From: Candidatus Hydrogenedentota bacterium | GTDB lineage: Bacteria > Hydrogenedentota > Hydrogenedentia > Hydrogenedentales > JAGMZX01 | Assembly: GCA_029556545.1 (NCBI GenBank) | Contig: JAKQEQ010000106.1 | Coordinates: forward strand, 1 to 57,380 | Reading direction: 5' to 3' | DNA length: 57,380 nucleotides | Part shown: positions 3,152 to 50,378 of the stretch, piece after piece | Layout of the letters: each line of letters begins with the position of its first letter | Numbering within the stretch: position 1 is the stretch's first letter | Notes under the pieces: model-generated | Told to the model about the DNA's origin: nothing | Databases searched by the model: none | Seen by the model: only the letters and a program-made list of their open reading frames with translations | Made by a program: the position numbers and the translations under genes

Positions 3152-3814
3152 TCACGGGCCGGCACATCGGGCGAGAATGTGCGCGGCCACCTCGTCGAGA
3201 GAGCCGTAGACCGCTTCCGGGGCGAGGGCTTCAAGTTCGTCGCGTGAGGCGGGGCCGGTCGTGACGCAGAGACACCGCGCGCCCGCCGCCCGCGCCGCCA
3301 GCACGTCGAAGGGCGTATCGCCGACGACATAGACGTCGTCAGGTGGCACGCCCAGCGCCGCCGCCGCGCGGATCACGGCCTCGGGGTGCGGTTTCGCGTG
3401 GGTGACGTCGTCCGGGCCGATGCGGGCGGTGAAATGTTCGAGCACGCCGTGATGTTCGAGGATCATCTCCGCGTAGAGACGCCGCTTCGACGTGGCGAAC
3501 CCGAGCCGCAGACCCGCGCCGCGGAAGGCGTCGAGAATCTCCCGTGCGCCCGGCAAGAGAAACGTGCCGTCGCGGGCGACCTTCGCGTAGTGATCGCGAT
3601 AGACACGGGCGCAAAGTGCGGCGTCGCAGTCCGGCCAGAATTGCCGGAACTGGTCTTCGAGGAGGTGGCCGATGGCGCGGATAATGCCCTCGCGATCCGG
3701 ACGGGGCCGCCCGAGCGTGTCGAAGGTATGAAAGAAAGATTCGACGATGGCCCGCGTCGAGTCGATCAACGTGCCGTCGAGATCGAAGACCACCGCGCGC
3801 GGGCGCGCTACCAT
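3152..3814 (-). CDS. HAD-superfamily phosphatase (phosphoglycolate phosphatase-like)
   Basis: This 220-residue haloacid-dehalogenase hydrolase carries all four motifs. Motif I is VFDLDGTL near residues 8-15, with the nucleophile Asp10 and the acid/base Asp12. Motif II is around FATSKRR, the motif III lysine is in HAKPHPE, and motif IV is VGDTPFD. A helical cap domain lies between motifs I and II, as in Gph/PpaX proteins. The start at 3814 overlaps the DUF2804 stop by seven bases, so translation is probably coupled. An upstream in-frame extension to 3907 lies inside DUF2804 and is not family-like. The stop is two bases from that of the convergent gene ending at 3148. Confidence 0.88.
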   Translation of the reverse strand: MVARPRAVVFDLDGTLIDSTRAIVESFFHTFDTLGRPRPDREGIIRAIGHLLEDQFRQFWPDCDAALCARVYRDHYAKVARDGTFLLPGAREILDAFRGAGLRLGFATSKRRLYAEMILEHHGVLEHFTARIGPDDVTHAKPHPEAVIRAAAALGVPPDDVYVVGDTPFDVLAARAAGARCLCVTTGPASRDELEALAPEAVYGSLDEVAAHILARCAGP

Positions 3815-31980: not shown

Positions 31981-32807
31981 AATCTGTCGACCTCCACCTG
32001 CATACCCATTGCTCGGACGGGGCGGATGCGCCGGAGGAGGTCGTGCGGCGCGCGGCGGCGCTGGGCATCGCCGCCATCGCGATCACGGACCACGACACCG
32101 TGGCGGGGCTGGAGGAAGCCCGCGCGGCGGCGACGGCGGCGGGCATCGAGTTTCTGTCGGGGGTTGAGATCAGCACGCGATTCGACCGGGTCGAAGTCCA
32201 CGTTCTCGGTCTGGGCATCGCCGCGGACAGCGCCGTGCTGCTCGACGGCCTGCGGCAACAGGAGGCGGCGCGGCGAGATCGGGCGGAGCGCATTCTCGAC
32301 CTGTTGCGGGCGCATGGGATTGCGCTGGACGATGCGATGATGCGGGATCAGGCGCGGCAAGGTTCGCTGGGTCGCATGCACGTGGCGGTCGCGTTGCGCG
32401 CGGCGGGCGTGACGCGGACGGTGCAGGAGGGTTTCGACCGTTTTCTGAACACGGGCCGGCCAGCCTATGTGCCGAAAACGATGGTCGCGGCGGAAGAGGC
32501 GATTAGCTGGATTCACGAGGCCGGCGGGCTGGCTTTTCTGGCGCACCCGGGGCTGGGCCAGGCCGTTCGACGGCGGTTGGACGCGCTGCTGGCGCTGCCG
32601 TTCGACGGACTCGAGGCCTACCATTGCAGCCATAGCCCCGGTGAAACAGACGGATACGCGGAGTTGGCGGAAACCCGTGGGCTGCTGATTACCGGCGGCA
32701 GCGATTGTCATGGGCACATCAAGGGTCAAGATCCGGAAATGGGCAAGGTGCGCATGCCCTATGCGCACTTCGCGCGGATCAAGGAGGCGCTGGCCGCGCG
32801 CGCGTGA
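31977..32807 (+). CDS. PHP-domain phosphoesterase (YciV / RNase AM-like)
   Basis: This 276-residue metal-dependent enzyme has the four PHP motifs: DLHLHTHCSDG, AITDHDTV, the EISTRF strand, and FLAHPG with the terminal GGSDCHGHI. The best-known relatives hydrolyse 3',5'-nucleoside bisphosphates and trim RNA 5' ends. GTG start overlaps nusB by four bases, so it closes the rib-nusB operon. It is followed by the TCGTNN repeat and the convergent coiled-coil gene. Confidence 0.88.
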   Translation: MKSVDLHLHTHCSDGADAPEEVVRRAAALGIAAIAITDHDTVAGLEEARAAATAAGIEFLSGVEISTRFDRVEVHVLGLGIAADSAVLLDGLRQQEAARRDRAERILDLLRAHGIALDDAMMRDQARQGSLGRMHVAVALRAAGVTRTVQEGFDRFLNTGRPAYVPKTMVAAEEAISWIHEAGGLAFLAHPGLGQAVRRRLDALLALPFDGLEAYHCSHSPGETDGYAELAETRGLLITGGSDCHGHIKGQDPEMGKVRMPYAHFARIKEALAARA

Positions 32808-32851
32808 TTTTCCCCCGAATCAGCCGAATCCAAACCTTTTCATCCCCCGTT

Positions 32852-32903
32852 TCGCACTCGCACTCGTGCTCGTACTCGTATTCGTACTCGTAATCGTACT
32901 CGT
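32852..32903. repeat. TCGTNN-family hexamer array
   Basis: Eight or so degenerate hexamers (TCGCAC, TCGTGC, TCGTAC, TCGTAT, TCGTAA) end in the flank CGTCCCGCCTCGAAA, very close to that of the 4902-5005 array (CGCCCCGCGTCGAAA). The array lies between convergent genes. Confidence 0.85.
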
Positions 32904-33004
32904 CCCGCCTCGAAAACAGCCACGTGCTACCACCACGAATCACACCAATTACACGAATTGACCGTTGAATTGCCGTCCTGTGATCCGCGTCACCGCCGAT
33001 CGGC

Positions 33005-36000
33005 TTAGACATTCCGCCGCGGGGTCACCTCGCAGCTTTCGAGATAGCGGCCAAGTTCGTCCATCGTCTCGTGCGTGACGCCGGTGCGATCGATGTGCAG
33101 CCGCATGAGCGTCGGCTTGAGCGCCCGCAACCGCGTAATGCAGCGGTTGGTAATCCTCGCCCCGTCGATGTAGAGGGACCGCACTTCCTTGCAGTTGTCG
33201 AATTCGGCGAAGCCGATATCCGACATGGCAATATCGACCAGCTTGATCTGCTGAAGGAGGCGCATCTCGCGCAGGTTGCTCAATCCTTGGTCCGTGATCT
33301 TCGTATAGGACAATTCGAGGCCGCGCAGGTGGCGCAAGCCGCGCACGTACCCGAGCGCCGCGTCTGTTATGTATTCGCCCACGAGGACCAGCGTGTGGAG
33401 GTCGTTGTGGCGAAGCCGCAGCAGGGGCGAAAGATCGCGCGCGCCCTCGTAATCGATGACGAGTTTGACCTGCATGCGCGCGGGAATGACCCGTTTGCCC
33501 TGGGCCTCGCCGAATTCGTCCCACGTGGCGTCGAGGTCTGACCGCCACGCCCGGACATAGAGGCGACCTAGCGAGTAATCCGCCGGGAATTGGAACACCC
33601 GTTCATCCGGGGGGGCGTCCGCTTCACGTCGCAGCACCTCGAAGGGCAATTCGGCCTTCAAGGCGCAGTTGGGCGGCAGCGCGGCGGCCACCGTCTGTTT
33701 CTCAGCGGCGCTCAGCCCACCCTCGACCGTCAATTCACGCAAGCCTCTGAGCCGCCTCAACTGCCGCAGGTTGTCTTCGGTCATCGGCAACTTGGGCAGC
33801 CACAAGGCCTCGATGAGTTCCGGCGGCTCGACGGCCTCGAGAGGCGCCAGGTTGCTCGCGGCAGCGTCCACGCGCATCCCGAGCACCGTGCCCTCGAGCA
33901 CGTCCACGCTCCCGCGCGCCTCGTGGATCGCTTCCCAGGGGCTCGCGGCGTCGGGCGCGCGCTTGAACAAGTACCCGAACGAGGCGTCCTCGGGAAACAG
34001 GAAGGACAATACGTTGGGCTGTTCCTCGACGACATCGCGCCTCCCTGGTCCGAAGAAGAGAAGAAGCGCCGTGGCCACGACGACGACACCGAGCACGGCG
34101 AGAAGCGGCGCGACCAGCGAGCGGCGGTTGCGCTCGCGCGCGCGCGTCAGGAGGAATTCCGACCGCGCAAGGGCCTTGTCCCTGCCCTCGAGTGATTCCC
34201 GGAGCTGCTCGACCTCCGCGCGGGCCTCTTCCAGTTCGCTCAGCTTCGCGTCCTGCGTCTGGCGCAGGCTCGCCAGTTCGGTCTCGATGTCCGAGTGCGA
34301 GGAGGTAGCCTTGTGACGCCGCGATTGCAGCGTATCGAGTTCCTGACGCAATTGTTCGATGGTGGCCGCGCTTTCCGCGTTTTGTTGCGTGGCCCGTTCC
34401 GCGTCTTCTTGTCGGGCGCGGAGTTGCTGTTCGAGTGCCTGAACCTGTTCCTGAGCGTGGGTCAATTCGGACGACTTGGTCGCTTCGTTCGCGCGCAACT
34501 GTTCGAGTTCTTCCGCGAGTCGTTGTTCGGAGGCGGCCTTTTCGCCGGCCTCCGCGTGCAGCGCGACGAGTTCCTCCTGCAATTTCGCCATCTGCGCCTG
34601 GTGCTCTGAACTCGATGCGGAGGCGGTCTCGACGGCCTCCTGCCGCGCGGACAAGCTTTCCCGGAGGGCTTCGAGTTCGCGCCGCGCTTCCTCGAGGGCG
34701 CTGCTCTTGTCCGCTTCGCTGCGCCGCAGGTTTTCGAGTTCTTCGGACAGTTTCGCCTCAGAAGACGATGCCCGCTCCGCCTGGGATTGAACGGCTTCGA
34801 ATTCGCGCCGCATCTTTTCAAGTTCGGCTTCGTGTTCGCTGCTCTTTTGCGCGGCCTGCGTCATGGCCCGCTCGCGTTCGTCCAGACGCGTCTGCAGCGC
34901 CTCGAGTTCCGAGCGCGCCTGTTCGAGGGCGCCGGACTTCGCGGTCTCGTTGGTGCGCAGTTCCTCGAGGTCCTCCATCAGGCGCTGTTCGGACTCGGAC
35001 GCCTCGCGCGTGCGCGAATGGAGGTCCACCAATTCACTCTGCAACTGCGCGACGGCTTCCTCGCTCAGGTGCTTTTCGGTGCTCGCCCGTTCGAGTTCCT
35101 TTTCGCGGCGCTGTAATTCATGCTTCAATTGGTCGAGCGCGCCGCGCGCGGCCTCGAGGTCCTGCGTCTTGTGGGTTTCGTTCGCGCGCAGCGCCGCCAG
35201 TTCCTCCGCCAAGGCGCGTTCGGACGAAGACGCCGCTTCCGCTTGGTTCTGAATCGATGCGAGTTCCTGGCGCAGCGCCACCAGCGCCTGCTCGTGCTCG
35301 GCGCTCTTTGCCTGCGCCTCCCGCACGGCCGTCTCGCGCTCGGCGAGCGAATTCCGCAGCGCTTCCATTTCGCCGCGGGCATGTTCGAGCGCCTCGGACT
35401 TCTCCCGCTCGTTGGACCGCAGTTGCTCGACTTCGGCGTGGAGCGCCTGCTCCGAGGAGGTCGCCTCGTCCGCGCGCCGCCGCAACGTATCGAGTTCATG
35501 CTGCATGTCCTGCAGGACGGCCTCCCGTTCCACAGCCTTCTGTTCCGCTTCGGCAATGGCCTGCTCGCGGTCCGACAAGCGTTCCTGGAGGTAGTCCAAC
35601 TCGGAACGGGCGTCCTTGAGCGCCTCCGTCTTGAAATCTTCCTTTTCCTTGAGGTCGTTCAGTTCCTGTTCGAGCGCCTGGCGGGACTGCGCCGCCTGGC
35701 CCGCGCGCTCGTGGAGGGCGACCAACTCCCCTTCGAGTTCGCGCATGCGCGCCTCGCGCTCGGCGCTTTCGCTTGCCGCCCGCGCGATGGCTTCCTCGCG
35801 CTGTTCGAGCGTGCGCTGAAGGGCGGCCATCTGCGATTTGGCGTCGTCGAGGGCGTGTTCTTTTTCCGCCTGTTTCGCGCGCAAGGCCTCGAGTTCCGCC
35901 GCCAGGCGCCCCTCGGAACTCGTTGCGTCTTCCGCGCGCGACTTGAGCGTATCCAGTTCCTCCTGAAGCCGGTCCACGGTGGCGCGGAGTTGCGCCTTGT

Positions 36001-36355
36001 CGCGGGCCTCTGTGAGGCGGGCCTGAATGCCGTCCTTCAAACGGGCCACCTCCGTGCGCTGACTCTGAATGGTCTTGGTGAGACTTGACCGCTCCGCCGG
36101 CGCGAGAAAATCGCCCAGTGCTCCCGCCTCCTCTTCCATGTGGGCGAGACGCTGCAACGCGGCGTCGGCGTCGGCCATGGCCTCGTTGAATCGGCCCAGG
36201 GCGGCCAGGGTCTGCGCGCGCAGGAGCAGCATATGGGCGCTGCCCGCCACGGCAAGACCGAGTTCCTCGAGCACGGCGAGCGCTTCGGTGAATTGTTGAT
36301 CGCGATAGTGCTGCGCGGCACGCTGATAACGTTCTTCGATGGTTTGCGGCTGCAT
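33005..36355 (-). CDS. Large coiled-coil membrane protein with seven 77-residue repeats and an LRR-like C-terminus
   Basis: The first 80 residues of this 1116-residue protein resemble TPR helices (YQRAAQHYRDQQFTEALAVLEEL). A long Glu/Arg/Ala coiled coil follows. Residues 158-696 are exactly seven units of 77 residues, each opening LR-x-(N/S)E-x-x-K, so each unit is eleven heptads. An eighth partial unit leads to one transmembrane helix (about 747-768). The remaining 345 residues contain leucine-rich-repeat-like strands (LHTLVLVGEYITDAALGYV, LRGLELSYTKITDQGLSNL). Topology is probably a cytoplasmic rod and an external or periplasmic LRR domain. Function unknown; a structural or polarity role is a guess. 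Confidence 0.75.
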   Translation of the reverse strand: MQPQTIEERYQRAAQHYRDQQFTEALAVLEELGLAVAGSAHMLLLRAQTLAALGRFNEAMADADAALQRLAHMEEEAGALGDFLAPAERSSLTKTIQSQRTEVARLKDGIQARLTEARDKAQLRATVDRLQEELDTLKSRAEDATSSEGRLAAELEALRAKQAEKEHALDDAKSQMAALQRTLEQREEAIARAASESAEREARMRELEGELVALHERAGQAAQSRQALEQELNDLKEKEDFKTEALKDARSELDYLQERLSDREQAIAEAEQKAVEREAVLQDMQHELDTLRRRADEATSSEQALHAEVEQLRSNEREKSEALEHARGEMEALRNSLAERETAVREAQAKSAEHEQALVALRQELASIQNQAEAASSSERALAEELAALRANETHKTQDLEAARGALDQLKHELQRREKELERASTEKHLSEEAVAQLQSELVDLHSRTREASESEQRLMEDLEELRTNETAKSGALEQARSELEALQTRLDERERAMTQAAQKSSEHEAELEKMRREFEAVQSQAERASSSEAKLSEELENLRRSEADKSSALEEARRELEALRESLSARQEAVETASASSSEHQAQMAKLQEELVALHAEAGEKAASEQRLAEELEQLRANEATKSSELTHAQEQVQALEQQLRARQEDAERATQQNAESAATIEQLRQELDTLQSRRHKATSSHSDIETELASLRQTQDAKLSELEEARAEVEQLRESLEGRDKALARSEFLLTRARERNRRSLVAPLLAVLGVVVVATALLLFFGPGRRDVVEEQPNVLSFLFPEDASFGYLFKRAPDAASPWEAIHEARGSVDVLEGTVLGMRVDAAASNLAPLEAVEPPELIEALWLPKLPMTEDNLRQLRRLRGLRELTVEGGLSAAEKQTVAAALPPNCALKAELPFEVLRREADAPPDERVFQFPADYSLGRLYVRAWRSDLDATWDEFGEAQGKRVIPARMQVKLVIDYEGARDLSPLLRLRHNDLHTLVLVGEYITDAALGYVRGLRHLRGLELSYTKITDQGLSNLREMRLLQQIKLVDIAMSDIGFAEFDNCKEVRSLYIDGARITNRCITRLRALKPTLMRLHIDRTGVTHETMDELGRYLESCEVTPRRNV
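34268..35884 (-). repeat. Seven tandem 231-bp coding units (77 aa each)
   Basis: Units begin at residues 158, 235, 312, 389, 466, 543 and 620 of the coiled-coil protein, with openings LRAKQAEK, LKEKEDFK, LRSNEREK, LRANETHK, LRTNETAK, LRRSEADK and LRANEATK. No unit differs in length. DNA identity is diluted, so the repeats are old or under selection for length. Confidence 0.85.
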
Positions 36356-36449
36356 GGTTCCCGCTCTGTTGTGGACCCGACCTTACCCTTGTTGCATCTC
36401 GGTTCCTGCCTTCATCTTGAGACGATCAACCGCCTCCTTGGGCGACGCT

Positions 36450-36478
36450 ATTATATCCTACCTCGATTTTGGCATAAT
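36450..36478. promoter_or_regulatory. Possible divergent promoter region
   Basis: The spacer between the coiled-coil gene and the next gene holds TATAAT on the minus strand (36450-36455) and CATAATAT on the plus strand (36473-36480). The -35 boxes are weak on both strands. Confidence 0.3.
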
Positions 36479-36531
36479 ATGCACGTGTTTTTTTAACTCC
36501 CGGACAAGCGGGAAGAGAAAGGGGTCGTCTG

Positions 36532-37515
36532 ATGGCGGACGCCGGCGAACGGATCGTGATTACATGCGCCTGCGGCCAGAAAATGAAGGTTCCGGCGGAA
36601 GCCGCTGGCAAGAAGTTCAAGTGCGTGAAGTGCGGCGCCGTGGTGACACCGCCGGGGGGGGGCGCTGCCGCGCCTGCCACTGCGCCCGCCGCCGAGCCGC
36701 GACCGGCGAGTCGCGAACGCGTGGGGCAGCTACTGATTAAGGAAGGCCTGATAACCCCCCAGCAGCTTTCCGAAGCCCTTGACGTGCAGCAACGCAGCGG
36801 CGGCAAGATCATCGAGATTCTGATACGGCTCGAGCACCTGGACAAGCAGGCGCTGCACGGGTTTCTGTCGAAGCAGCCGGGCGTCGCCGCCATCAATCTT
36901 TCGCGGTATACCCTCGAAGGCGACCTGGTGAACCTCATTCCCAAGGAACTCGCCCTCCGCGAGATGGTGCTGCCCATTGACCGTCTCGGCAAGCTGTTGA
37001 CCGTCGCCATGGCCTGCCCCCTGGATGCGGACACCATCGCGGAGTTGCAGCGGATCACCGGCCTCAAGGTCAAGGCCATGCTCTGCAAGTTCGATGACAT
37101 CCAGGAAGCCGTCGCGAAACTGTACCGCGAGCGAGACGCGAGCGCGTCGCACGCCTTCGATCACATTCTGGCCAGGGCACATGGGCCGGTGACGCCCGCC
37201 GCGCCGCCCGCCGTTGCGCCGGCGGCATCTGCTCCCACGCCGTCCCCTCCGACCGCGCCTCCGCGGTCGGCGCCCGCGCGCCCCTTGACGCCGGAGCTGG
37301 TCGAGAAATTCATCGCGATGGCGGAGGATGCCTCCGTTTCGACCAAGGATTTTGCGCGGGCGGCCACGGAGGAGTCGGCGCTTGCAGAAGTCTTGCTGCA
37401 CGCGGCAAACAGCGGTCTATATGGCGCGGCCGGGAAGGTTCGGAGTCCGGGAATGGCGATCGCCGTGTTAGGCCGGGACGGGATTGCCGACCTGCTGCGT
37501 ATGGCATTTCAGTAA
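36532..37515 (+). CDS. Zinc-ribbon / GspE N-domain (MshEN) / HDOD-like hybrid protein
   Basis: This 327-residue protein has three parts. Residues 10-38 form a zinc ribbon (CACGQKMKVPAE-KFKCVKCGA). Residues 60-205 match the N-terminal domain of type II secretion/pilus ATPases (VGQLLIKEGLITPQQLSEALDVQQ, HGFLSKQPGVAAINLSRY, LIPKELALREMVLPI), which in MshE binds cyclic-di-GMP. After a Pro/Ala linker, residues 252-327 resemble the start of an HDOD domain (NSGLYGAAGKVRSPGMAIAVLG). There is no ATPase domain. The link to the nearby pilus operon is suggestive only. The HDOD part is shorter than usual. Confidence 0.7.
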   Translation: MADAGERIVITCACGQKMKVPAEAAGKKFKCVKCGAVVTPPGGGAAAPATAPAAEPRPASRERVGQLLIKEGLITPQQLSEALDVQQRSGGKIIEILIRLEHLDKQALHGFLSKQPGVAAINLSRYTLEGDLVNLIPKELALREMVLPIDRLGKLLTVAMACPLDADTIAELQRITGLKVKAMLCKFDDIQEAVAKLYRERDASASHAFDHILARAHGPVTPAAPPAVAPAASAPTPSPPTAPPRSAPARPLTPELVEKFIAMAEDASVSTKDFARAATEESALAEVLLHAANSGLYGAAGKVRSPGMAIAVLGRDGIADLLRMAFQ

Positions 37516-39265: not shown

Positions 39266-40465
39266 GTGTTGTTCACGAAGCCGAAGAAGGCCATCGGGAT
39301 TGATGTGGGGAATCATTCCGTGAAGGCAGTGATGATGTCGCGCGCGGGCGCCCGGCTGTGCGTGGATGAGGCGAGTTACGTGCTGGTGGACCGGAGCGTT
39401 GCCACGAATGATGCGACGTTGGCACAGGCGAACGCGGTGCGCGAGGCGGTGGCCAACATGCCTACCGGCGCCGCGCTGCTCGTCGGGGCGTTGCCCGGCC
39501 AGACGGTTGTCATCCGGTATCCCCGGCTCCCTGATACGCCGAAAGACCAATTGCCGGCGGTGATCCAGCGGGAAGCCGGGCAGAATATTCCCTATGATCT
39601 TTCGGAAGTCTACCTGAGTTCGACGGTGCTTTCGGAGATTCAGGAAGGCGACACCAAGCAACTCAAGGTGCTGCTGGTGGCGGCCAAACACGAAGTGGTG
39701 AATTCGCGCGTCCAGATTGCGCAAGCCGCGGAGATTCAATTTGGCGTGTTATCGGTGGACTCCTTGGCCCTGGCGGACGGGGCATCGTGCTGTAACATGC
39801 TGCGGATGGGCGAGACGGTGGCCTTGGTGAACGTGGGGCACACGTCGGCCAGCATCCATTTCGTGAAGGACGGCGTATCGAATTTCATTCGCGATGTCAG
39901 TTGGGGCGCGCGCGAATTGATTCAGGCCATCGCCAAGGACCGGCGGTGCACGCCCGAAGAGGCGGAGAAAGCGCTGCAAGCGGCCGGGCGAGGGAAAGCA
40001 GCCCCGGTGCCGCAGGTGGAATCCCCGCCGAGGCCGCCGTCCGGCGGCGGATCGCTGTTGGACCCGCTGGACGAAGAACTGGGCGGGTTGGGCGAACCGT
40101 TGGGCGAAGCCCCGCGGGATTTGGCGCCGATGGCGCCGGAAGTGCGGACCCGCGACCTGCGCGACGTCCTGGGCGCGTCCTTGGGCCGGATGGTGTCCGA
40201 GATCCGGCGTTCCTTTGACTATTATGAGCACCAGTTGTATGAGCAACCGGTGTCACGTCTAATCTTGAGTGGCGGCGTGGCTCACGTGCCGATTCTGGGC
40301 GAGACGTTGATGGATGAATTGGACGTTGACAGCGTGGAGGTGGCGGACCCGACAGTTTCCGGCCCGGTCTTGGGCGATGACCGCGCGGTGGCGCCGTTAC
40401 GGGAACGGCCCGCCCAGTTTCTGGTCGCGCTGGGTCTGGCGGCGCGAGGGATAGCCGACCTATGA
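39266..40465 (+). CDS. pilM: Type IV pilus assembly protein PilM
   Basis: This 399-residue actin-like protein recruits the inner-membrane pilus platform. The phosphate-binding loop is AIGIDVGNHSVKAV at residues 9-22. The middle has SVDSLALAD and the second nucleotide region VALVNVGHTSASIHFV, followed near the C-terminus by LILSGGVAHVPIL. An unusual Pro/Gly-rich insertion occupies about residues 245-295. GTG start with CGGAG ten bases upstream. Its TGA overlaps the pilN ATG by four bases. First gene of pilMNOPQ. Confidence 0.93.
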   Translation: MLFTKPKKAIGIDVGNHSVKAVMMSRAGARLCVDEASYVLVDRSVATNDATLAQANAVREAVANMPTGAALLVGALPGQTVVIRYPRLPDTPKDQLPAVIQREAGQNIPYDLSEVYLSSTVLSEIQEGDTKQLKVLLVAAKHEVVNSRVQIAQAAEIQFGVLSVDSLALADGASCCNMLRMGETVALVNVGHTSASIHFVKDGVSNFIRDVSWGARELIQAIAKDRRCTPEEAEKALQAAGRGKAAPVPQVESPPRPPSGGGSLLDPLDEELGGLGEPLGEAPRDLAPMAPEVRTRDLRDVLGASLGRMVSEIRRSFDYYEHQLYEQPVSRLILSGGVAHVPILGETLMDELDVDSVEVADPTVSGPVLGDDRAVAPLRERPAQFLVALGLAARGIADL

Positions 40466-41139
40466 TTATCAAGATCAACCTGTTGCCCGAGGGGTTGCGC
40501 CCCATCAAGCGGACGCCGCTGCCGCACCTGGCCAGCTTGTTGGTGCTGGCGCTGGCGCTGGCGGCCATGGGGTATGTCTTCATGGAGGTGCGCGGGCGCG
40601 TCGCGGGAGAAGAGCAGCGACTGGCCGCCATCGAGCGAGAGTTGAAGGAACTCGAGCCCATTCGGGAGGACTACAAGCGCCTCAAGGCGGAAGAACAGAC
40701 TTTGCGCGCGAAGGTCGAAGTCATCGATGAGATTCTCAGGGATCGGATCGTTTGGTCCGAGCAGTTGGACCGCCTCGTGACGCTCACTCCGGAAAACGTC
40801 TGGTACGACCGCGTGTGGGTGGCCATGGAGGCGGACCAGCGCGAGGTGGTGGTGGTGGATGAGAAGACGAAAGAGCCGGTAATCGACCCGAGGACGAATC
40901 GGCCCAAGGTCGAGATTATCAAGACGAACGAGCAGCGCCTGTTCGTCTCCGGGTACGTGAAGGCGGATGAGAACATGCGCTTCAACGTCAACCCGCTGCT
41001 CAATAATACGCGCGCCGACACAGCGTTCGCCGCGGTGTTTCCGCAGCGGAATCCGCGTTTCGAGGACACGGTATTCGCGGAGCGGCCCGTTCGCCGCTTC
41101 ACGTTGGTGTTCGGAATCAATGCGGGAGGCGGCGCCTGA
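40462..41139 (+). CDS. pilN: Type IV pilus assembly protein PilN
   Basis: This 225-residue bitopic membrane protein has a short cytoplasmic N-terminus MIIKINLLPEG(L), the conserved INLLPE motif that docks into the PilM groove. One transmembrane helix (about 22-42), a coiled coil and a periplasmic ferredoxin-like domain follow. An insertion with VVVDEKTKEPVIDPRTNRP near residue 135 is longer than in most PilN. Overlaps pilM and pilO by four and one bases. Confidence 0.88.
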   Translation: MIIKINLLPEGLRPIKRTPLPHLASLLVLALALAAMGYVFMEVRGRVAGEEQRLAAIERELKELEPIREDYKRLKAEEQTLRAKVEVIDEILRDRIVWSEQLDRLVTLTPENVWYDRVWVAMEADQREVVVVDEKTKEPVIDPRTNRPKVEIIKTNEQRLFVSGYVKADENMRFNVNPLLNNTRADTAFAAVFPQRNPRFEDTVFAERPVRRFTLVFGINAGGGA

Positions 41140-41717
41140 TGCTTGATTTCTTCAAAGGAACCGTGACGCGGCGCGATTGGGCGTTCGTGGCCGCCGTCTT
41201 CGTCATTATCGTGGTGCTCGCTGTACTCTTCGTCTTCCTCGTCTACAACAGGCAGCAGGAGGAACTGGCCCGGATCGGGGGTGAGATAGGGCGCAAATCG
41301 TCCGAATTGGCCGAAGCGCGGCGGAACGCGGAGAATATCGAGGCGCTGCGGGCCCTCGAGCGTTACACCGACGCATTGAGCGAGCAATTGCGTTTGCGTC
41401 TGCCGGATGAACGCGAGTTCTTGAGCTTTCTCCAGACGCTCGAGAGCATCAGCGCCGATCACGATCTGACCATCAGCTTCAAACCGGGCAACCCGAAAAA
41501 AGACGCATTCAAGGAGACGTCTCCGTACACCGTCACGGCGCGGGGCGCTTTCCACAAGATTCTTCGTTTCGTGAATGACCTCGAGTGCTATGATCGCTAT
41601 GTGCGTGTGGACGATATTGATATCAAGTATGTGGCAGCCGGCGTCAGCGAAGCGAAATTTGTGGTAAGCACCTTCCGCTTCCTCGAACCGGCAGTCGAAA
41701 TGGCGGCGCAAAAGTGA
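41139..41717 (+). CDS. pilO: Type IV pilus assembly protein PilO
   Basis: This 192-residue bitopic protein has TRRDWAFVAAVFVIIVVLAVLFVFLVY as a transmembrane helix from about residue 6, a coiled coil with QQEELARIGGEIGRKSSEL, and a periplasmic ferredoxin-like domain (LRLRLPDEREFLSFLQTLES). It heterodimerises with PilN. Its TGA overlaps the next GTG start by four bases. Confidence 0.85.
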   Translation: MLDFFKGTVTRRDWAFVAAVFVIIVVLAVLFVFLVYNRQQEELARIGGEIGRKSSELAEARRNAENIEALRALERYTDALSEQLRLRLPDEREFLSFLQTLESISADHDLTISFKPGNPKKDAFKETSPYTVTARGAFHKILRFVNDLECYDRYVRVDDIDIKYVAAGVSEAKFVVSTFRFLEPAVEMAAQK

Positions 41718-42271
41718 ACGAGAAAAACCGCAAACAGATAATCCTCCTGGGCGCGGCTGGCGCCGCGCTGGTGGGCGTACTCGTTTACCAGTTCGTGATC
41801 GCCGGCGGCGCCGCCCCGACGCCTGCCGCGTCGCAGACCGCCCCGACGGCCGCCCCCGCGGCGCGGCCGCGCACCCCGGCGGCCCCTGGCGCGCCGCGCG
41901 AAGCCGCCAAGGCGGAGGAGGATCCGCTCAGCCCGGCGGCGCTTGACAGTATACTGGCGCGCATCCAGCGGGTGACCTTCCGTTACCCGGAGAATCCCGT
42001 GCGGGATCCGATGGAGCCGCTGATCAGGGAAGGAACCCGCCTCCAGACCCAGGGCCTGATGCCCATTGCGGGCGCGTCGGTGATTTCGCTCCAATCCAAG
42101 AGAGTCACGGGCATCATCGGGAATGATCAATATCGTTACGCCGTGGTGGATGATGAGGTGGTCTTCCCCGGCTATCGTTATCCAGACGGGGTCTGGGTCG
42201 AGGCGATTGAGCGAGACAAGGTGATATTCGGTTTTGAAGATAAGCGGATAGAAGTTCTGCTGAAGGAGTAG
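41714..42271 (+). CDS. pilP: PilP-like pilot/bridge protein
   Basis: This 185-residue protein has a hydrophobic N-terminal segment (residues 8-27), then a Pro/Ala-rich linker (30-75) and a C-terminal beta domain with SVISLQSKRVTGIIGNDQYRYAVV and VWVEAIERDKVIFGF. It occupies the pilP position between pilO and pilQ and would link the PilN/PilO ring to the secretin. A lipobox cysteine typical of many PilP proteins is absent, so anchoring is probably by the N-terminal helix. Confidence 0.7.
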   Translation: MNEKNRKQIILLGAAGAALVGVLVYQFVIAGGAAPTPAASQTAPTAAPAARPRTPAAPGAPREAAKAEEDPLSPAALDSILARIQRVTFRYPENPVRDPMEPLIREGTRLQTQGLMPIAGASVISLQSKRVTGIIGNDQYRYAVVDDEVVFPGYRYPDGVWVEAIERDKVIFGFEDKRIEVLLKE

Positions 42272-42277
42272 CGCGCC

Positions 42278-45010
42278 ATGTCCTTCCGATGCAACCTGTT
42301 GTGGGCGTGCGCCCTCGTCTTACTTGCGTCTCCCGTGAGCGCGGTGGACGACGACGCCCGGCTGGAATCGCGCAAGGCGGAGGTAGTCCGCGCCGCGCTC
42401 GCGCATAATCCCGCAGCCGGCGACGTGGCGCGGTTGCTTGCCGCCGCCGCGGACGCCGAAGCACTTACCGATATTACCTTGACATCGGGGCGGGATTCCG
42501 AAATGGTGCGATTAACCGTTTCCGGCGATCCCGCGTGCGACGCCTTCGCCCTCGACGGGGGCCGACGGATTGTCCTGGACCTGCTCAACGTGGTGAATCT
42601 GCATTCCGGCAAGATATTGCGTCCGGCGGCGCCCTCGCTCATCGAATCCGTGCGCACCAGTCTGTATACGATCGAGCCGCAAATCACCTCGCGGGTCGTT
42701 ATCGACCTGACCAGACCGACCGGTCTCCGCATCGAGCAGGCGGATGAGTGCCTACGGGTGTACGGCGGGTCGGCGTCCCCTTCCGGCGAAGCGCCTCCGC
42801 TGCTGGCCGAGGTCGCGTTTGCGGGCGGCAAAGATAAGCAAGCTGATCCTGACTCCGATCTGGCGCCGTTGGGAGCGGACCTGCGCGCCCTCCGGGAACA
42901 TCACGAGGCGACACCCGAGCACCCGGAAACGATGGTCGAGAACGCCACGCCTCCAACGGCGCAAGAACCGGCGCCTTCGGAAGTTATGGCGCCGCAGCCG
43001 CCAACCGAGGCGACGGTCCCCAATAGTCTGGCCTTCGAGTTGGCCGCCCTGCGCCGGATTCGGGCGGGCGCGTCCGCGCCCTCGTTGGCGGAAGACATGC
43101 GACTGGTCGCCGCGGCGCGCCCCAATATTCGTTTGGGCGATATCCTCCTGTCGGCGGCTGTCGGCGAAGAGATGGCCGAGACGGCCCAGGATGCCGAGGC
43201 CCCGGCGGAGGAACCCGCGCAAGATGTGGAAGACGCCGCGCCGGAAGACGCGGCGCCGGAAGAAGCGCCCGAAGAGCCGGAGGAAGCGGCTGATGTGATC
43301 GAGGAACCGCCGCCGGCGCGGCCTGAGGTTGTCGAGCCGGACTTGGCGGAGGCGAACGTGGCGCTTACGGAGCGTTTGCGCGCCCTCGAGGAACTCGCCG
43401 ACGCCGGGGCGCCGCCGGACGCGCTCGCGCCGCCGGCCCCGGTGCGTCCCGCCCGTCCGACGTATCAAGGGAATCCGCTGGATATGCCCGTGAACCTGGA
43501 CTTTCGCGACATGGATATGGCGAATGTCGTCGCCATACTCGCTTCGATGGCGGACATCAACGTGATCGCGGGAACGGACTTGTCGGGTACGGTTACGTTG
43601 AGCTTGAAGGACGTGCCGCTGCGGCAGGCAATACAGACGGTATTGCGGATAAACGGCTTGGGCATGGTGCATGAGGAAGGGATTTATCGGATCGTGCCTT
43701 ACGCGGAGGCGGCGGCGGCAAAACGGACGACGATGCTGGTGACCCTCGAGAAGGCAAACGTGAAGGAAGTCCAGAAGGTGCTGGACGACGTGCTCGTCGG
43801 CTCGGTGGATCAGAAGCTCGTGAGTCTGTCCTCCAACGACAAGACGAACGTGCTGGTCATCTCGGGGCCGGAGGCGCGTGTCAGCGAACTGGCCGTCCTG
43901 GCCCACCGGCTTGATATCGCGGAACCGGTTCTGCCGACGGTGACCGAGGCCATTAAGCTGAACTATTCCGAGCCGGACCAGTTGCAGGAACTTGTGAAGA
44001 CCATGCTTACCAAGGAGGTTGGGCAGGTCTCGAGCGACAATCGCGCGCGCTTCCTCGTGGTCACGGACGTGCCCGCCGTCGTCGAGCAGGTCCGCGTGCT
44101 GGTACAGCAGTTGGACCTCCCGGTGCGGCAGGTCGCGCTTAACTCGATGGTAGTGGACGCGGTGTTGAATGACGACGCGTCGACCGGCGTCGACTGGCTG
44201 ATGAGCGCCGTGCGGCGGCAGAGCCGCCGTGACGCGGCGTTCGGGACCGACCGCTTCGTGAGCAATCTTCAGGAGTTGGCGTGGAATTCGAGCATGCGGT
44301 TCTCGGACAGCCCGGCGGGCGCGTTGACCTTCGGGATTCTGTCGGGCGACATCGACTTGCGCGGCTTGATACAGGCGGAGGTGCGCAATCAGAACGGGAC
44401 GCTGCTGTCGAACCCGACGGTCGTAACGGTGGAGAACAAACCGGCGCGCATCATCATCGCGCAAGAGATACCGTACATCGAACTGGTGCAAACGAACGCC
44501 GGCGGCTCGCAGACTAACACGGAGTTCAAGGAGATCGGCACCACCCTCGAGGTAACCCCGCGCGTGACGCATGACGATCATGTGCTGGTGGACATCGCCG
44601 GCAAGGAGAGCGGCACGATCGGTGAATTCCAGGGGATTCCCATCGAGGACAAGCGCGAGGTCGAGACGACGCTGCGGGTGAAGAACGGGCAGACGGTCTT
44701 CATCGGCGGCCTGCGCAAGAACGACAAGGACACCACGGTGCGGAAGCTGCCGGTCCTTGGCGATATCCCCGGCCTTAACGTGTTGTTCCGGTCGAATGTG
44801 CGTACGGAGCGCGTGAACGAACTGCTCATTTTCCTGACGTGCAACGTGCTGCCGGACGACGTGCCGACGCTCACCGCGCATGAGCAGCAGAAGTATGACA
44901 CAGGCGCCGGGATGGAGATGGTGCCGAACGCGCAGAAGGCGTTGGTGCACGACACGTTCCATCCGGGAGAAATGCGCGATCCTATCTGGAGAGTGCGCCG
45001 CAGCGACTGA
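42278..45010 (+). CDS. pilQ: Type IV pilus secretin PilQ
   Basis: This 910-residue outer-membrane channel begins with a signal peptide (about 1-22). An AMIN domain for peptidoglycan binding (about 60-160) is followed by a very long acidic Pro/Glu/Ala linker (about 170-390), then the STN/N0 domain with MPVNLDFRDMDMANVVAILA and secretin N-domains. The secretin barrel has GTLLSNPTVVTVENKPARI, VTPRVTHDDHVLVDI and the end motif RTERVNELLIFLTCNVLP. Linker length is notable. Begins six bases after pilP. Confidence 0.94.
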   Translation: MSFRCNLLWACALVLLASPVSAVDDDARLESRKAEVVRAALAHNPAAGDVARLLAAAADAEALTDITLTSGRDSEMVRLTVSGDPACDAFALDGGRRIVLDLLNVVNLHSGKILRPAAPSLIESVRTSLYTIEPQITSRVVIDLTRPTGLRIEQADECLRVYGGSASPSGEAPPLLAEVAFAGGKDKQADPDSDLAPLGADLRALREHHEATPEHPETMVENATPPTAQEPAPSEVMAPQPPTEATVPNSLAFELAALRRIRAGASAPSLAEDMRLVAAARPNIRLGDILLSAAVGEEMAETAQDAEAPAEEPAQDVEDAAPEDAAPEEAPEEPEEAADVIEEPPPARPEVVEPDLAEANVALTERLRALEELADAGAPPDALAPPAPVRPARPTYQGNPLDMPVNLDFRDMDMANVVAILASMADINVIAGTDLSGTVTLSLKDVPLRQAIQTVLRINGLGMVHEEGIYRIVPYAEAAAAKRTTMLVTLEKANVKEVQKVLDDVLVGSVDQKLVSLSSNDKTNVLVISGPEARVSELAVLAHRLDIAEPVLPTVTEAIKLNYSEPDQLQELVKTMLTKEVGQVSSDNRARFLVVTDVPAVVEQVRVLVQQLDLPVRQVALNSMVVDAVLNDDASTGVDWLMSAVRRQSRRDAAFGTDRFVSNLQELAWNSSMRFSDSPAGALTFGILSGDIDLRGLIQAEVRNQNGTLLSNPTVVTVENKPARIIIAQEIPYIELVQTNAGGSQTNTEFKEIGTTLEVTPRVTHDDHVLVDIAGKESGTIGEFQGIPIEDKREVETTLRVKNGQTVFIGGLRKNDKDTTVRKLPVLGDIPGLNVLFRSNVRTERVNELLIFLTCNVLPDDVPTLTAHEQQKYDTGAGMEMVPNAQKALVHDTFHPGEMRDPIWRVRRSD

Positions 45011-47454: not shown

Positions 47455-48921
47455 TCAGAACCGGAAAAGGATCAACGTGGCGGCCTCGTAACCCGCCGCG
47501 CACGCGAGTAACAGCCCGGACCACAGCGCGGCCCCCAGCATCGCGCCTACGCCGCGGGCCATCTGCGCCAGGAACGCGCCGCCGGACATTCCTCGGAAAA
47601 AGCAGACGAAATAAACGCATACGGCGAAACACGCCAGGATATACGCCTCGAATTCAAGAACCATCGTGACGCAGTGGTACGAGTAACCGCCCAAGGTGTC
47701 GGTCCAGAGCGGCGTCATGACGAAGCCGACAAGCGCCAGGCTGGCCGCGGTCTTGATCACCCCGATGCCGGGGACGATAACGGAGGCCAGCAACGTGAAG
47801 AGCAGGGTCGCGGTGACATAGTTGTGGTGGAAGGTCGCAAGCGCCGCCTGCCAGATGTTGGCCGCCGCATACGCCTGCCCGATGTACGCGAGTTCGCCCT
47901 CCATGAATATCCCGGCGACGAGGCCGGTGAGGGTCATGCTCCAAAGCGGCCGCGCGAGCCCAAAGAGCATCGCGCCGAAGAAGAGGGCGTACAGGCCCAT
48001 GTGCAGTGCGACCCAGAGGCGCGGTCGCGACGCGATTTCCTCGAAGATCGGGGTCCCGCACCGCACGCCGCGTTGGTGCAGTGCGCGCCACACGCGCGTC
48101 AGCAACAGCGCGCCGCCGCACGCGACACACGCGAGCCCCGCGATCCCCATCAGGCTGAGCATGGGCTCAATGAGTCCCACGCCCCCCAAGACGGTCGCCT
48201 TCGTCTCGTCGGTTTCTCCGGCCTCCTCGGACGCATCGTCCGCTTCCACGGGCGCGCGCCCGCCGTCGGGATGCATCCAGCCGCGCGTCGCGCCCGTCTC
48301 GGCGGTGAACAGCGGGCGAAACGCCTCGTGATCCGGCAACAGGTACGTGAACAGGAACGGCGCGGCGTAGCCGTCCATCCGCCCGACGACGCGAAAGGTC
48401 GTTCCGTCCAGCGTGAAGGCGTCGCGCCGCGCCAACGTCCCCGCGAGCACTTCCGGCGATCCCGCCTCGGGGAAGCGCCCGGAAGAGAGCAACCCGCGCT
48501 CCATGTCCCGGGGAATCGGGGCGAAGACCACGTATTCCGCGCGCGCTTCGTTTTCCCGCAGCCTTTCGAGGGCATCCCGTAACACGGGGTCCTGGGCGAC
48601 CGTCCCGAAACGCTGCTCGATCCGGTCCGCGATCGACACGGCGGCATCGTGCGGTGCGCGACGTGTCATTATCGATAGGGCGTCCTCGATCTCCAGTTCG
48701 CCTTCGGGGATCAGGATGCCGTTGGCCCACGGTTGCCGCGCGCTGCGCTGGCGTTCGATGGCGTCCCCGGCGAGAAGAACGGCGATCCCCATGCCCAACA
48801 ACGCCAGCGCGGTTCTCCATCGCGGCGGTTCCCGCATCCCGCCCCTTTCATTCCTCGCCGTTTCCAGGCACTCCGCCGCGGGCGGCGTTTCGCTCCCAGG
48901 CTGATTAACGGGTTCGCTCAT
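47455..48921 (-). CDS. Polytopic membrane protein with a large extracytoplasmic domain, unknown
   Basis: This 488-residue protein has an N-terminal helix (about 36-53) and a soluble region of about 200 residues (LEIEDALSIMTRRAP to RAPVEADDASEEAG). Six or so transmembrane helices from residue 258 onward follow. The C-terminal half (NIWQAALATFHHNYVTATLLFTLLASVIVPGIGVIKTAA) vaguely resembles SpoIIM-like membrane proteins, but I cannot assign it. Its ATG overlaps the ceramidase-like stop by four bases, so the two are co-translated and may share a lipid-related or envelope function. Confidence 0.6.
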   Translation of the reverse strand: MSEPVNQPGSETPPAAECLETARNERGGMREPPRWRTALALLGMGIAVLLAGDAIERQRSARQPWANGILIPEGELEIEDALSIMTRRAPHDAAVSIADRIEQRFGTVAQDPVLRDALERLRENEARAEYVVFAPIPRDMERGLLSSGRFPEAGSPEVLAGTLARRDAFTLDGTTFRVVGRMDGYAAPFLFTYLLPDHEAFRPLFTAETGATRGWMHPDGGRAPVEADDASEEAGETDETKATVLGGVGLIEPMLSLMGIAGLACVACGGALLLTRVWRALHQRGVRCGTPIFEEIASRPRLWVALHMGLYALFFGAMLFGLARPLWSMTLTGLVAGIFMEGELAYIGQAYAAANIWQAALATFHHNYVTATLLFTLLASVIVPGIGVIKTAASLALVGFVMTPLWTDTLGGYSYHCVTMVLEFEAYILACFAVCVYFVCFFRGMSGGAFLAQMARGVGAMLGAALWSGLLLACAAGYEAATLILFRF

Positions 48922-50378
48922 GCGGCATCGCGGAGTGTCGCCGCGGCGGCGGGCCGGATCGCCTCAACGGTGCGTTCGAGCAGCGCGGTGAAATAAGCCT
49001 CGGCGTCGGGGCCGCACCACGACATGAAGCCGGTTTCGTAACCGAGCGGCTCGACGTTGTAGTACTTGTCCGGGGAAAGGTAGCCGCAGTAAGCGGCGCA
49101 GAAGCTCGAGGTCCAGAGGTCGATGCCTTCTCGCTCCGCCCACCGCTTCCATTCGGCGCTGGTCTCGCCGCTGAGGTCGAAGGGCGCGCCGAAAAACACG
49201 AGGTCGCCGACGCGGACGCCCTGAATCCAGCCCTCCATCGGGTTGCCCAGCAGCTTGGCCACGAACGGCGATAATCGCCATTTCGTGCCGCCGGGGCGCA
49301 TCTGGAGGGGCGGCATCCCGAGGGGGACGCCAATCGAGGCAACATCAGCGGTGTAGAGATAGTCTTGAGAACCGATTCGTGCCAAATCGCCGACGATCAG
49401 TTGCGCCAAGCCCTCGCCCATGGCGTTGACCCGCTCGTGCGGGGTGCGTCCCTCGGGAGCGCGCGGGCCCATGCTGCCGAGCGCGCCGCCAAGATACACG
49501 ACCTCCGCGCCCGTGTCACGCGCGAGGGCGCGCATCAGCGCGCCGGGGTATTCCGCCGTGAATTCGAGCATGTCGTCGCCGTGGATGGTCGGGTGGGCCG
49601 AAAAACTGACGAGAAAGCACCGTGTGCCGTCGTCGCGCTCGATGGAGAGATAGCTGAGTTCGGAATCGACGCCGGCGTCCCGGGCGCGATTGCGGATGAA
49701 CTGGGACGCGTCGACGCCCCGGTGGGCCAGGCGCGCGGGTTGTATGGTGTTGTAGGCCTCGATGATCGCCTCGGCGAATTGCCTCGCGATCATAGCGACC
49801 AACTCGGGGTCGTGCTTGCCGCCGGTGATGCGCGCGGCGATGCCGGGGGCGAATCCGCCGGGGCCGCAGTGGGTATGGCTCGCGCCGAAGAGGATATGCC
49901 GTTCGGTGAGGGGCGTCGCGGCGGCGACCTGCTCGCGGACCATCGCCGCTATATTCGGGGGGATGATCAGCATATCCGCGCCGACAATGACCGCAGTGTC
50001 GCGTCCGTCGCCGAGGGCGAGGGCCTTCACATGGAGGGGATCATGCACACCGGTCGCGTTCTTGTCGCCTTCGTATTTATCGAACAGGAGATTGGACGGG
50101 GTGACGTTGAAGCGCGCGCCGTAGCCGCCCATGGGCGTGCCCGGCTTCGGCGTAATGTCGCGACTGGCCCAGCCCGCGAGAAGCGGGCCGGGGGCGTCGC
50201 TGAATTCGTTTGCCGCCGCGGCGGTCGCGATGTCGCGCAGCGCACGGCGATAGTAGTCGGCGCTTTCGAAGTTCGAGGAGGCGTAGGTCGGCCACGGGCC
50301 GATGAACGTGACAAACGCCGCGACAAGCAGCACGATAAGCAGCAACAGCCCGAGCAGAATCCTTTTCACGATGCGCAT
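48918..50378 (-). CDS. Neutral/alkaline ceramidase-like hydrolase, membrane anchored
   Basis: This 486-residue protein has an N-terminal signal anchor (about residues 7-27). Its core resembles the N-terminal zinc domain of neutral ceramidases: AGWASRDITPKPGTPMGGYG, DMLIIPPNIAAMV, GASHTHCGPGG with the zinc histidines, and SFSAHPTIHGDDM. The C-terminal immunoglobulin-like domain of full-length ceramidases is absent. Ceramide is therefore not a safe substrate prediction; many bacterial members are uncharacterised. Middle gene of a three-gene minus-strand unit. Confidence 0.8.
   Translation of the reverse strand: MRIVKRILLGLLLLIVLLVAAFVTFIGPWPTYASSNFESADYYRRALRDIATAAAANEFSDAPGPLLAGWASRDITPKPGTPMGGYGARFNVTPSNLLFDKYEGDKNATGVHDPLHVKALALGDGRDTAVIVGADMLIIPPNIAAMVREQVAAATPLTERHILFGASHTHCGPGGFAPGIAARITGGKHDPELVAMIARQFAEAIIEAYNTIQPARLAHRGVDASQFIRNRARDAGVDSELSYLSIERDDGTRCFLVSFSAHPTIHGDDMLEFTAEYPGALMRALARDTGAEVVYLGGALGSMGPRAPEGRTPHERVNAMGEGLAQLIVGDLARIGSQDYLYTADVASIGVPLGMPPLQMRPGGTKWRLSPFVAKLLGNPMEGWIQGVRVGDLVFFGAPFDLSGETSAEWKRWAEREGIDLWTSSFCAAYCGYLSPDKYYNVEPLGYETGFMSWCGPDAEAYFTALLERTVEAIRPAAAATLRDAA

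Follow-up and report, generated by a model that had tools for sequence, protein, structure and literature searches.

FimV and HubP are described as a periplasmic domain followed by a membrane helix, an extended acidic stretch in the cytoplasm, which in HubP contains repeats, and a tetratricopeptide repeat (TPR) tip; in P. aeruginosa, FimV is tied to type IV pili (PMC12918733). PodJ of Caulobacter is described with a cytoplasmic, coiled-coil-rich N-terminus, a membrane helix and a periplasmic C-terminus that has a role in pili (PMC10127582). Among long membrane-anchored coils, golgins form parallel homodimers of 50–600 nm whose length is kept while the sequence drifts; coiled-coil length in general varies 3.6 times less than length elsewhere, and length kept without sequence is taken as a sign of spacer function (reviewed in PMC5082667). 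Here we describe a gene at positions 33005..36355 (minus strand) of a 57,380-nucleotide stretch of DNA, the window in what follows, from Candidatus Hydrogenedentota bacterium (contig JAKQEQ010000106.1, assembly GCA_029556545.1). It encodes a 1116-residue protein made up of a TPR-like head, a coiled coil of eight 77-residue units, one membrane helix and two modules that each combine a small β-rich cap with leucine-rich repeats (LRRs). By analogy its layout is most like that of an inverted FimV/HubP or of PodJ, and by the features tested it is a member of neither. We tentatively read it as a membrane-anchored cytoplasmic scaffold or spacer rod, modular in units of 77 residues and tied to a pilus/secretin machine and to an MshEN–HDOD neighbour, and consider this explanation the best of those weighed below, though short of probable.

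The coil comprises eight contiguous units of exactly 77 residues, or eleven heptads, over residues 121–736, the profile scan giving a spacing of 77 seven times running. The original prediction had seven exact units; the exact length agrees with both lag identity and the profile scan, and the count is corrected to eight. On the minus strand of the window the units lie at 35765..35995 (unit 1, residues 121–197), 35534..35764 (unit 2, 198–274), 35303..35533 (unit 3, 275–351), 35072..35302 (unit 4, 352–428), 34841..35071 (unit 5, 429–505), 34610..34840 (unit 6, 506–582), 34379..34609 (unit 7, 583–659) and 34148..34378 (unit 8, 660–736). Residue identity at lags of 77, 154, 231 and 308 is 0.34–0.39 (residues 106–760); in 1000 heptad-phase-preserving shuffles it rose no higher than 0.215 at lag 77, or 0.228 when every lag from 20 to 240 is considered. 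Two heptad phases are rich in large hydrophobic residues (62% and 45%), the other phases holding at most 9%. Across 270 units (positions numbered from 0) the core runs in the order a6, d9, a13, d16 and so on, and its hydrophobic stretches are interrupted by conserved charged layers at Glu27, Glu41, Lys44 and Arg65. Core Lys44 is present in 81% and Arg65 in 78% of these units and both occupy identical positions in each of the eight units of the window protein, while a Glu33–Arg38 g–e′ pair recurs in each unit. The coil is acidic overall, with 23.4% Asp and Glu and a net charge of −55 over 616 residues.

A search of the coil against PDB sequences produced no match at E ≤ 0.001. Several library matches to the coil were rejected as reflecting coiled-coil composition. 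The hit to ATG16 (PF08614) reaches 45.9 bits against a cut-off of 33.7, but covers coil residues 651–735 only, and no single stretch passes alone; SMC_prok_B (NCBIfam) scores 99.3 bits on the coil against a cut-off of 567.35; and matches to Rad50 and PgrA were dismissed on the same grounds.

A search of 40 relatives (39 others and the window's own genome) found a match in all 40 at E ≤ 0.001, some of them fragments or LRR-only. Units were scanned in 31 proteins, the window's included, with an ungapped 77-wide profile iterated on their own units and with matches less than 40 residues apart excluded; this set leaves aside fragments (G001, G023 and a second G008 contig) and LRR-only or weak-match relatives (G004, G005, G024, G029, G034, G036 and G039). 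Successive units are spaced by exactly 77 residues in 234 of 239 cases, the others being 74 (twice), 447 (twice, equal to 77 + 5 × 74) and 56 (once). In 15 held-out loci outside profile building the spacing is 77 in 105 of 108 cases, with 245 (twice) and 74 (once) making up the remainder, so that 339 of the 347 pooled spacings are exact. When the window coil was shuffled 200 times with heptads preserved, the same scan found one match and no spacing of 77. The search for irregular unit lengths in homologues, which the original prediction had named as its test, thus comes out in favour of a fixed unit. All eight exceptions hold the coiled-coil phase, 56 and 245 being multiples of seven and 74 and 447 three-residue stutters. 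Family f3 has, behind its 77-residue units, a further array built of 74-residue units, the three missing residues falling at the Glu41–Lys44 site; in G014 and G033 they are missing at the unit end. The f3 arrays span residues 938–1677 of the L056 open reading frame (ORF) and 767–1210 of that of L060, and their stutter deletes the charged core site.

Unit number is less strictly kept, ranging from 7 to 14 in the proteins scanned, with the 74-residue units of f3 in addition. Eight units are kept in families f1, f2, f7, f8 and f9 and in part of f11. Unit 1 and the membrane helix, whose start was taken as the hydropathy maximum with an accuracy of about two residues, lie 626–630 residues apart in 12 of the 31 proteins, four of them from family f6, and 684 to 1532 residues apart in the remaining 19; the distance is 625 in the held-out locus L098 and ranges from 621 to 1208 over the held-out loci, not counting two fragments in which no membrane helix was usable. 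In family f6 (L055, L061, L062 and L063) unit 8 no longer scores as a unit, and the distance is still 626–629 residues, as with eight units. A coiled coil rises by 0.1485 nm per residue, which gives a computed length of 11.4 nm for one unit and about 91.5 nm for eight if straight; across the 31 proteins, unit 1 would stand 93–228 nm from the membrane if the coil is continuous, and the shortest unit arrays measure 80 nm. Since unit length is fixed and unit number variable, the rod changes in quanta, and a common length of eight units (about 91.5 nm) recurs across several families. The earlier claim of a constrained rod length therefore stands for the unit and only partly for the total.

The array is old. 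Among eight eight-unit proteins, units at the same position in different species share 46% identity, compared with 35.3% for units at different positions between species and 35.6% for those within one protein, indicating that the units are positional orthologues and that the array has not been homogenized. On the same figures, concerted evolution is rejected as the source of equal units in the eight-unit proteins. Seven-unit proteins of family f10 correspond mostly to units 1–7, in order. In f11 and f4 the additional inner units derive from recent whole-unit duplication (top adjacent identities 0.57–0.82), and f11 proteins with 12–14 units retain units 1 and 2 at the start and 7 and 8 at the end, with the inner units multiplied. 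Gap openings per 1000 aligned columns in pairwise comparisons number 1.04 in the coil, 9.75 in the head and 18.3 in the tail (28, 28 and 15 pairs for coil, head and tail, respectively, with two truncated tails dropped). In a tree of head and tail (316 columns) the eight-unit proteins fall in several clades, with weak support for the deep nodes.

Could the constancy be a by-product of tandem duplication of a 231-bp block combined with the general intolerance of coiled coils to insertions and deletions, the protein being a plain coiled-coil linker for which the number 77 carries no particular meaning? Whole-unit duplication did multiply the inner units in f11, every exception to the spacing respects helical phase, and SMC from the same genomes is just as constant: in 12 genomes of the phylum the full-length SMC match spans 3546–3552 nucleotides in 11, constant within two codons, and is split in two matches in the twelfth. 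Peculiar to the rod protein relative to SMC, however, are the exact repeated unit, the charged core pattern and the quantal changes. A by-product would also sit poorly with the exact signature of each unit (Lys44, Arg65 and Glu27/41 in the core and the Glu33–Arg38 pair), with the keeping of eight units in so many families of an old array that is orthologous unit by unit, and with the unchanged total distance in f6 despite an eighth unit that no longer scores. We regard this explanation as somewhat unlikely, yet as the most serious competitor of the scaffold or spacer rod.

The side of the membrane on which the rod lies can be approached from charge, as the basic flank of a membrane helix lies on the cytoplasmic side (the positive-inside rule). 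The single membrane helix lies at about residues 748–768 (34052..34114, minus strand), with an Arg-rich stretch before it. Averaged over the 31 proteins, Lys and Arg together number 4.2 in the 15 residues that precede the helix and 1.8 in the 15 that follow it; the N-terminal flank is the more basic in 28, equal in three and less basic in none. By the rule, the cytoplasm would hold head and coil and the periplasm the LRR tail, so that the coil and TPR head most likely are cytoplasmic and anchored in the inner membrane with the tail outside. The original prediction had suggested an envelope spacer or ruler. A coil that spans or spaces the cell envelope would suit a single membrane helix adjoining a long rod, and long periplasmic coils are known, such as the 50-nm rod of Omp-alpha of Thermotoga (PMC5082667). 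The flanking charges, however, place the coil inside, no N-terminal signal peptide is apparent in the window protein, the head is TPR-like, and a rod of 80–228 nm exceeds an ordinary periplasm. The envelope placement is therefore set aside as very unlikely, and, given the constancy of SMC, length by itself does not imply a ruler.

In eight proteins examined for strand pairing, parallel in-register g–e′ pairs are attractive in 17–24 and repulsive in 2–6 cases in every protein (z of 3.4–4.7 relative to shuffles within g and e). The mean charge-pair score is best at a stagger of 0 (0.204), next best at 77 (0.182) and shows lesser maxima wherever the stagger is a multiple of 77, while antiparallel registers average near zero. 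These pairs favour a parallel, in-register coiled coil, and together with the heptad a/d core are those expected of a parallel two-stranded coil, two being the probable strand number. The secondary maxima, together with charged core layers that repeat in every unit, would also be consistent with 77 being a docking or stagger period, either because each unit binds one polymer subunit in the manner of tropomyosin or because rods associate laterally, offset by 11.4 nm, in a cytoskeletal bundle. However, such maxima arise from any sequence of period 77, no polymer partner is seen in the gene neighbourhood, and unit number is variable; this role is considered quite unlikely.

At the far end of the proposed cytoplasmic rod, the head (residues 1–120, 35996..36355) is modelled by AlphaFold with a mean predicted local distance difference test score (pLDDT) of 93.5. 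The model shows helices at residues 3–18, 22–35, 40–52 and 56–79 and then one continuous helix over residues 86–196, such that two TPR-like hairpins pass directly into the coil. The top 50 PDB matches listed by Foldseek are all TPR proteins or TPR-based designs, the best with an E-value of 1.6 × 10−3 and none at or below 0.001, and Pfam TPR matches are under the cut-off; the head is assigned to TPR helix hairpins. The start codon precedes unit 1 by exactly 120 residues in 23 of 26 homologues listed. At the other end, unit 8 is separated from the membrane helix by 10–14 residues in eight-unit proteins. In several f10 and f6 proteins (L044, L047, L048, L050, L051 and L061) a motif of the type Ser-Val/Ile-Ser-Val/Ile stands ahead of the membrane helix, often followed by a basic cluster.

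The tail consists of two related modules (31% identity over 89 columns, E = 1 × 10−4), residues 780–925 (33581..34018) and 926–1116 (33008..33580), each a small β-rich cap followed by LRRs in a model of mean pLDDT 92.3. LRR proteins are the top Foldseek matches and LRR families match most of 32 tails at E ≤ 0.1, the window tail itself being under the cut-offs; leucine-rich repeats are thus present in both sequence and fold. The TPR-like start, the one membrane helix and the LRR-like end were all foreseen in the original prediction and are borne out here. Other large proteins in the phylum also carry the cap-plus-LRR module, frequently repeated many times (a 1934-residue frame in G018:C40, and L002 in G000:C129).

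Golgins such as giantin resemble the rod protein in combining a long parallel coil with a membrane anchor, and a membrane helix near the C-terminus and a docking head at the far end match as well (PMC5082667), which raises the possibility of a tether of internal membranes or vesicles. They are, however, eukaryotic, have many coil breaks and lack a periplasmic LRR tail, and no 77-residue unit is described for them in the part of the review on which we draw (PMC5082667). The rod protein continues for roughly 340 residues of LRR tail past the membrane helix, its gene context indicates surface machinery, and evidence of internal membranes in this organism is lacking. Golgins are not known to carry a large domain beyond the membrane helix. 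Such a tether is accordingly judged highly improbable.

The bacterial systems are closer to the scaffold or spacer rod. Like FimV/HubP, the rod protein has an extended acidic region between membrane and TPR, cytoplasmic as judged from charges. Unlike in FimV/HubP, the chain is reversed, with TPR at the N-terminus, the middle is a proline-free coiled coil where theirs is unstructured, and LRRs stand in place of LysM; HubP repeats vary widely in length and number between genera, whereas the unit length here is fixed. No LysM match was found in the rod protein in Pfam (E ≤ 0.001) or NCBIfam, no FimV model is among its NCBIfam matches at E ≤ 0.1, and no C-terminal FimV-type TPR was found. With PodJ it would share the order of a cytoplasmic N-terminal coiled coil, membrane helix and periplasmic C-terminus, a likeness of layout and not of homology. 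PodJ has a disordered region between coil and membrane where the rod protein has only its 10–14 residues, and the portion of the PodJ account cited here describes no exact repeat units (PMC10127582). A long coil of constant length is also found in the SMC proteins of these genomes, but the rod protein is without their ATPase head.

The gene upstream, at 36532..37515 on the plus strand, is divergent and encodes a Cys-rich start followed by MshEN and the start of an HDOD domain. Of 31 homologue loci, 20 have an MshEN–HDOD gene next to the coil gene, as does the window, and all 21 clustered copies are divergent. A full-length homologue (L033) exceeds the cut-off of NCBIfam NF053729, a cyclic di-GMP-binding, MshE-related family. 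Of the 11 loci that lack the gene, six end less than 1 kb upstream (L037, L041, L044, L049, L056 and L063). The window copy is 327 residues long and covers 73 of 196 HDOD positions, its homologues being about 500 residues with a full or nearly full HDOD; the HDOD half appears to have been lost in this genome. Further along the plus strand, pilM and pilO, each followed by an unassigned ORF, and then secretin genes occupy 39266..45010, and some families retain them next to the coil gene: PilM is near it in nine and PilO in eight of 35 loci. Riboflavin genes lie on its other side in 16 of 35. A promoter scan of 32780–36560, including the intergenic region, gave no promoter-like site.

We propose on this basis that two chains would form a parallel, in-register coiled coil of eight eleven-heptad units, about 91.5 nm long if straight. 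Its cytoplasmic end, far from the membrane, would bear the TPR head for docking, and the LRR tail would serve in the periplasm as an anchor or sensor. The rod would hold partners docked on the TPRs at a defined reach, either away from the membrane or along it, and would probably organize a surface machine of the type IV pilus/secretin type, with the divergent MshEN–HDOD neighbour in control; its role might be comparable to those of FimV/HubP and PodJ at the pole machinery, with the chain direction opposite to that of FimV/HubP. Of this, the units and their conservation, the domains and the gene pairing are observed; topology, oligomeric state and reach are inferred, and the scaffold role and the tie to pili and cyclic di-GMP are proposed. 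A more specific version is unlikely as a whole. It would make the protein a phylum-specific quantized spacer whose reach evolves only by single 77-residue units (11.4 nm), each a module marked by buried Glu, Lys and Arg layers, with a common setting of eight units (about 91.5 nm) that holds a TPR-docked, cyclic di-GMP-linked surface machine at that reach.

Several observations weigh against the scaffold or spacer rod. Unit number varies, so there is no universal reach, and the equally invariant SMC of these genomes shows that fixed length alone is no proof of a ruler. The best of many antiparallel registers score 0.15–0.29 per pair, and hence the g–e′ pairs favour but do not prove a parallel coil; the dimeric state is deduced from charge pairs and the AlphaFold models are of monomers. 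Five loci with at least 1.6 kb upstream (L045, L047, L051, L054 and L060) have no MshEN–HDOD gene and pil genes adjoin in only nine of 35, so that the functional link could be inherited synteny.

Homologues elsewhere in the phylum share the 77-residue units. Among 68 genomes of the window's phylum, all labelled with the same order, the tail profile matches 59 at E ≤ 1 × 10−25 and 47 at E ≤ 1 × 10−60, the latter threshold being taken to exclude plain LRR matches, and the head profile, as a positive control, matches 48. In the phylum of G068 (titled Planctomycetaceae bacterium), the one other phylum covered, the head profile matches none of 149 genomes. Presence there was rejected for the tail profile also: it matches nine of 195 genomes at E ≤ 1 × 10−30, and the 16 places listed begin at model position 254 or later, corresponding to LRRs only. 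Among the papers listed in literature searches for the architecture or for a 77-residue unit nothing was relevant, and one for MshEN with HDOD listed a single Leptospira paper; the rod protein is previously undescribed. It represents a natural coiled coil in which unit length is conserved phylum-wide while unit number shifts by whole units. Few systems would allow rod length to be altered unit by unit with known helical phase, and with this one the setting of distance by a bacterial coiled coil could be put to the test. The protein also indicates an undescribed scaffold near pilus and cyclic di-GMP-type genes in a little-studied phylum. Elsewhere, PF07596 has 27 matches in the window's own genome, and a ceramidase-like protein (neutral/alkaline; PF04734, above the cut-off) is encoded at 48918–50378 on the minus strand of the window.

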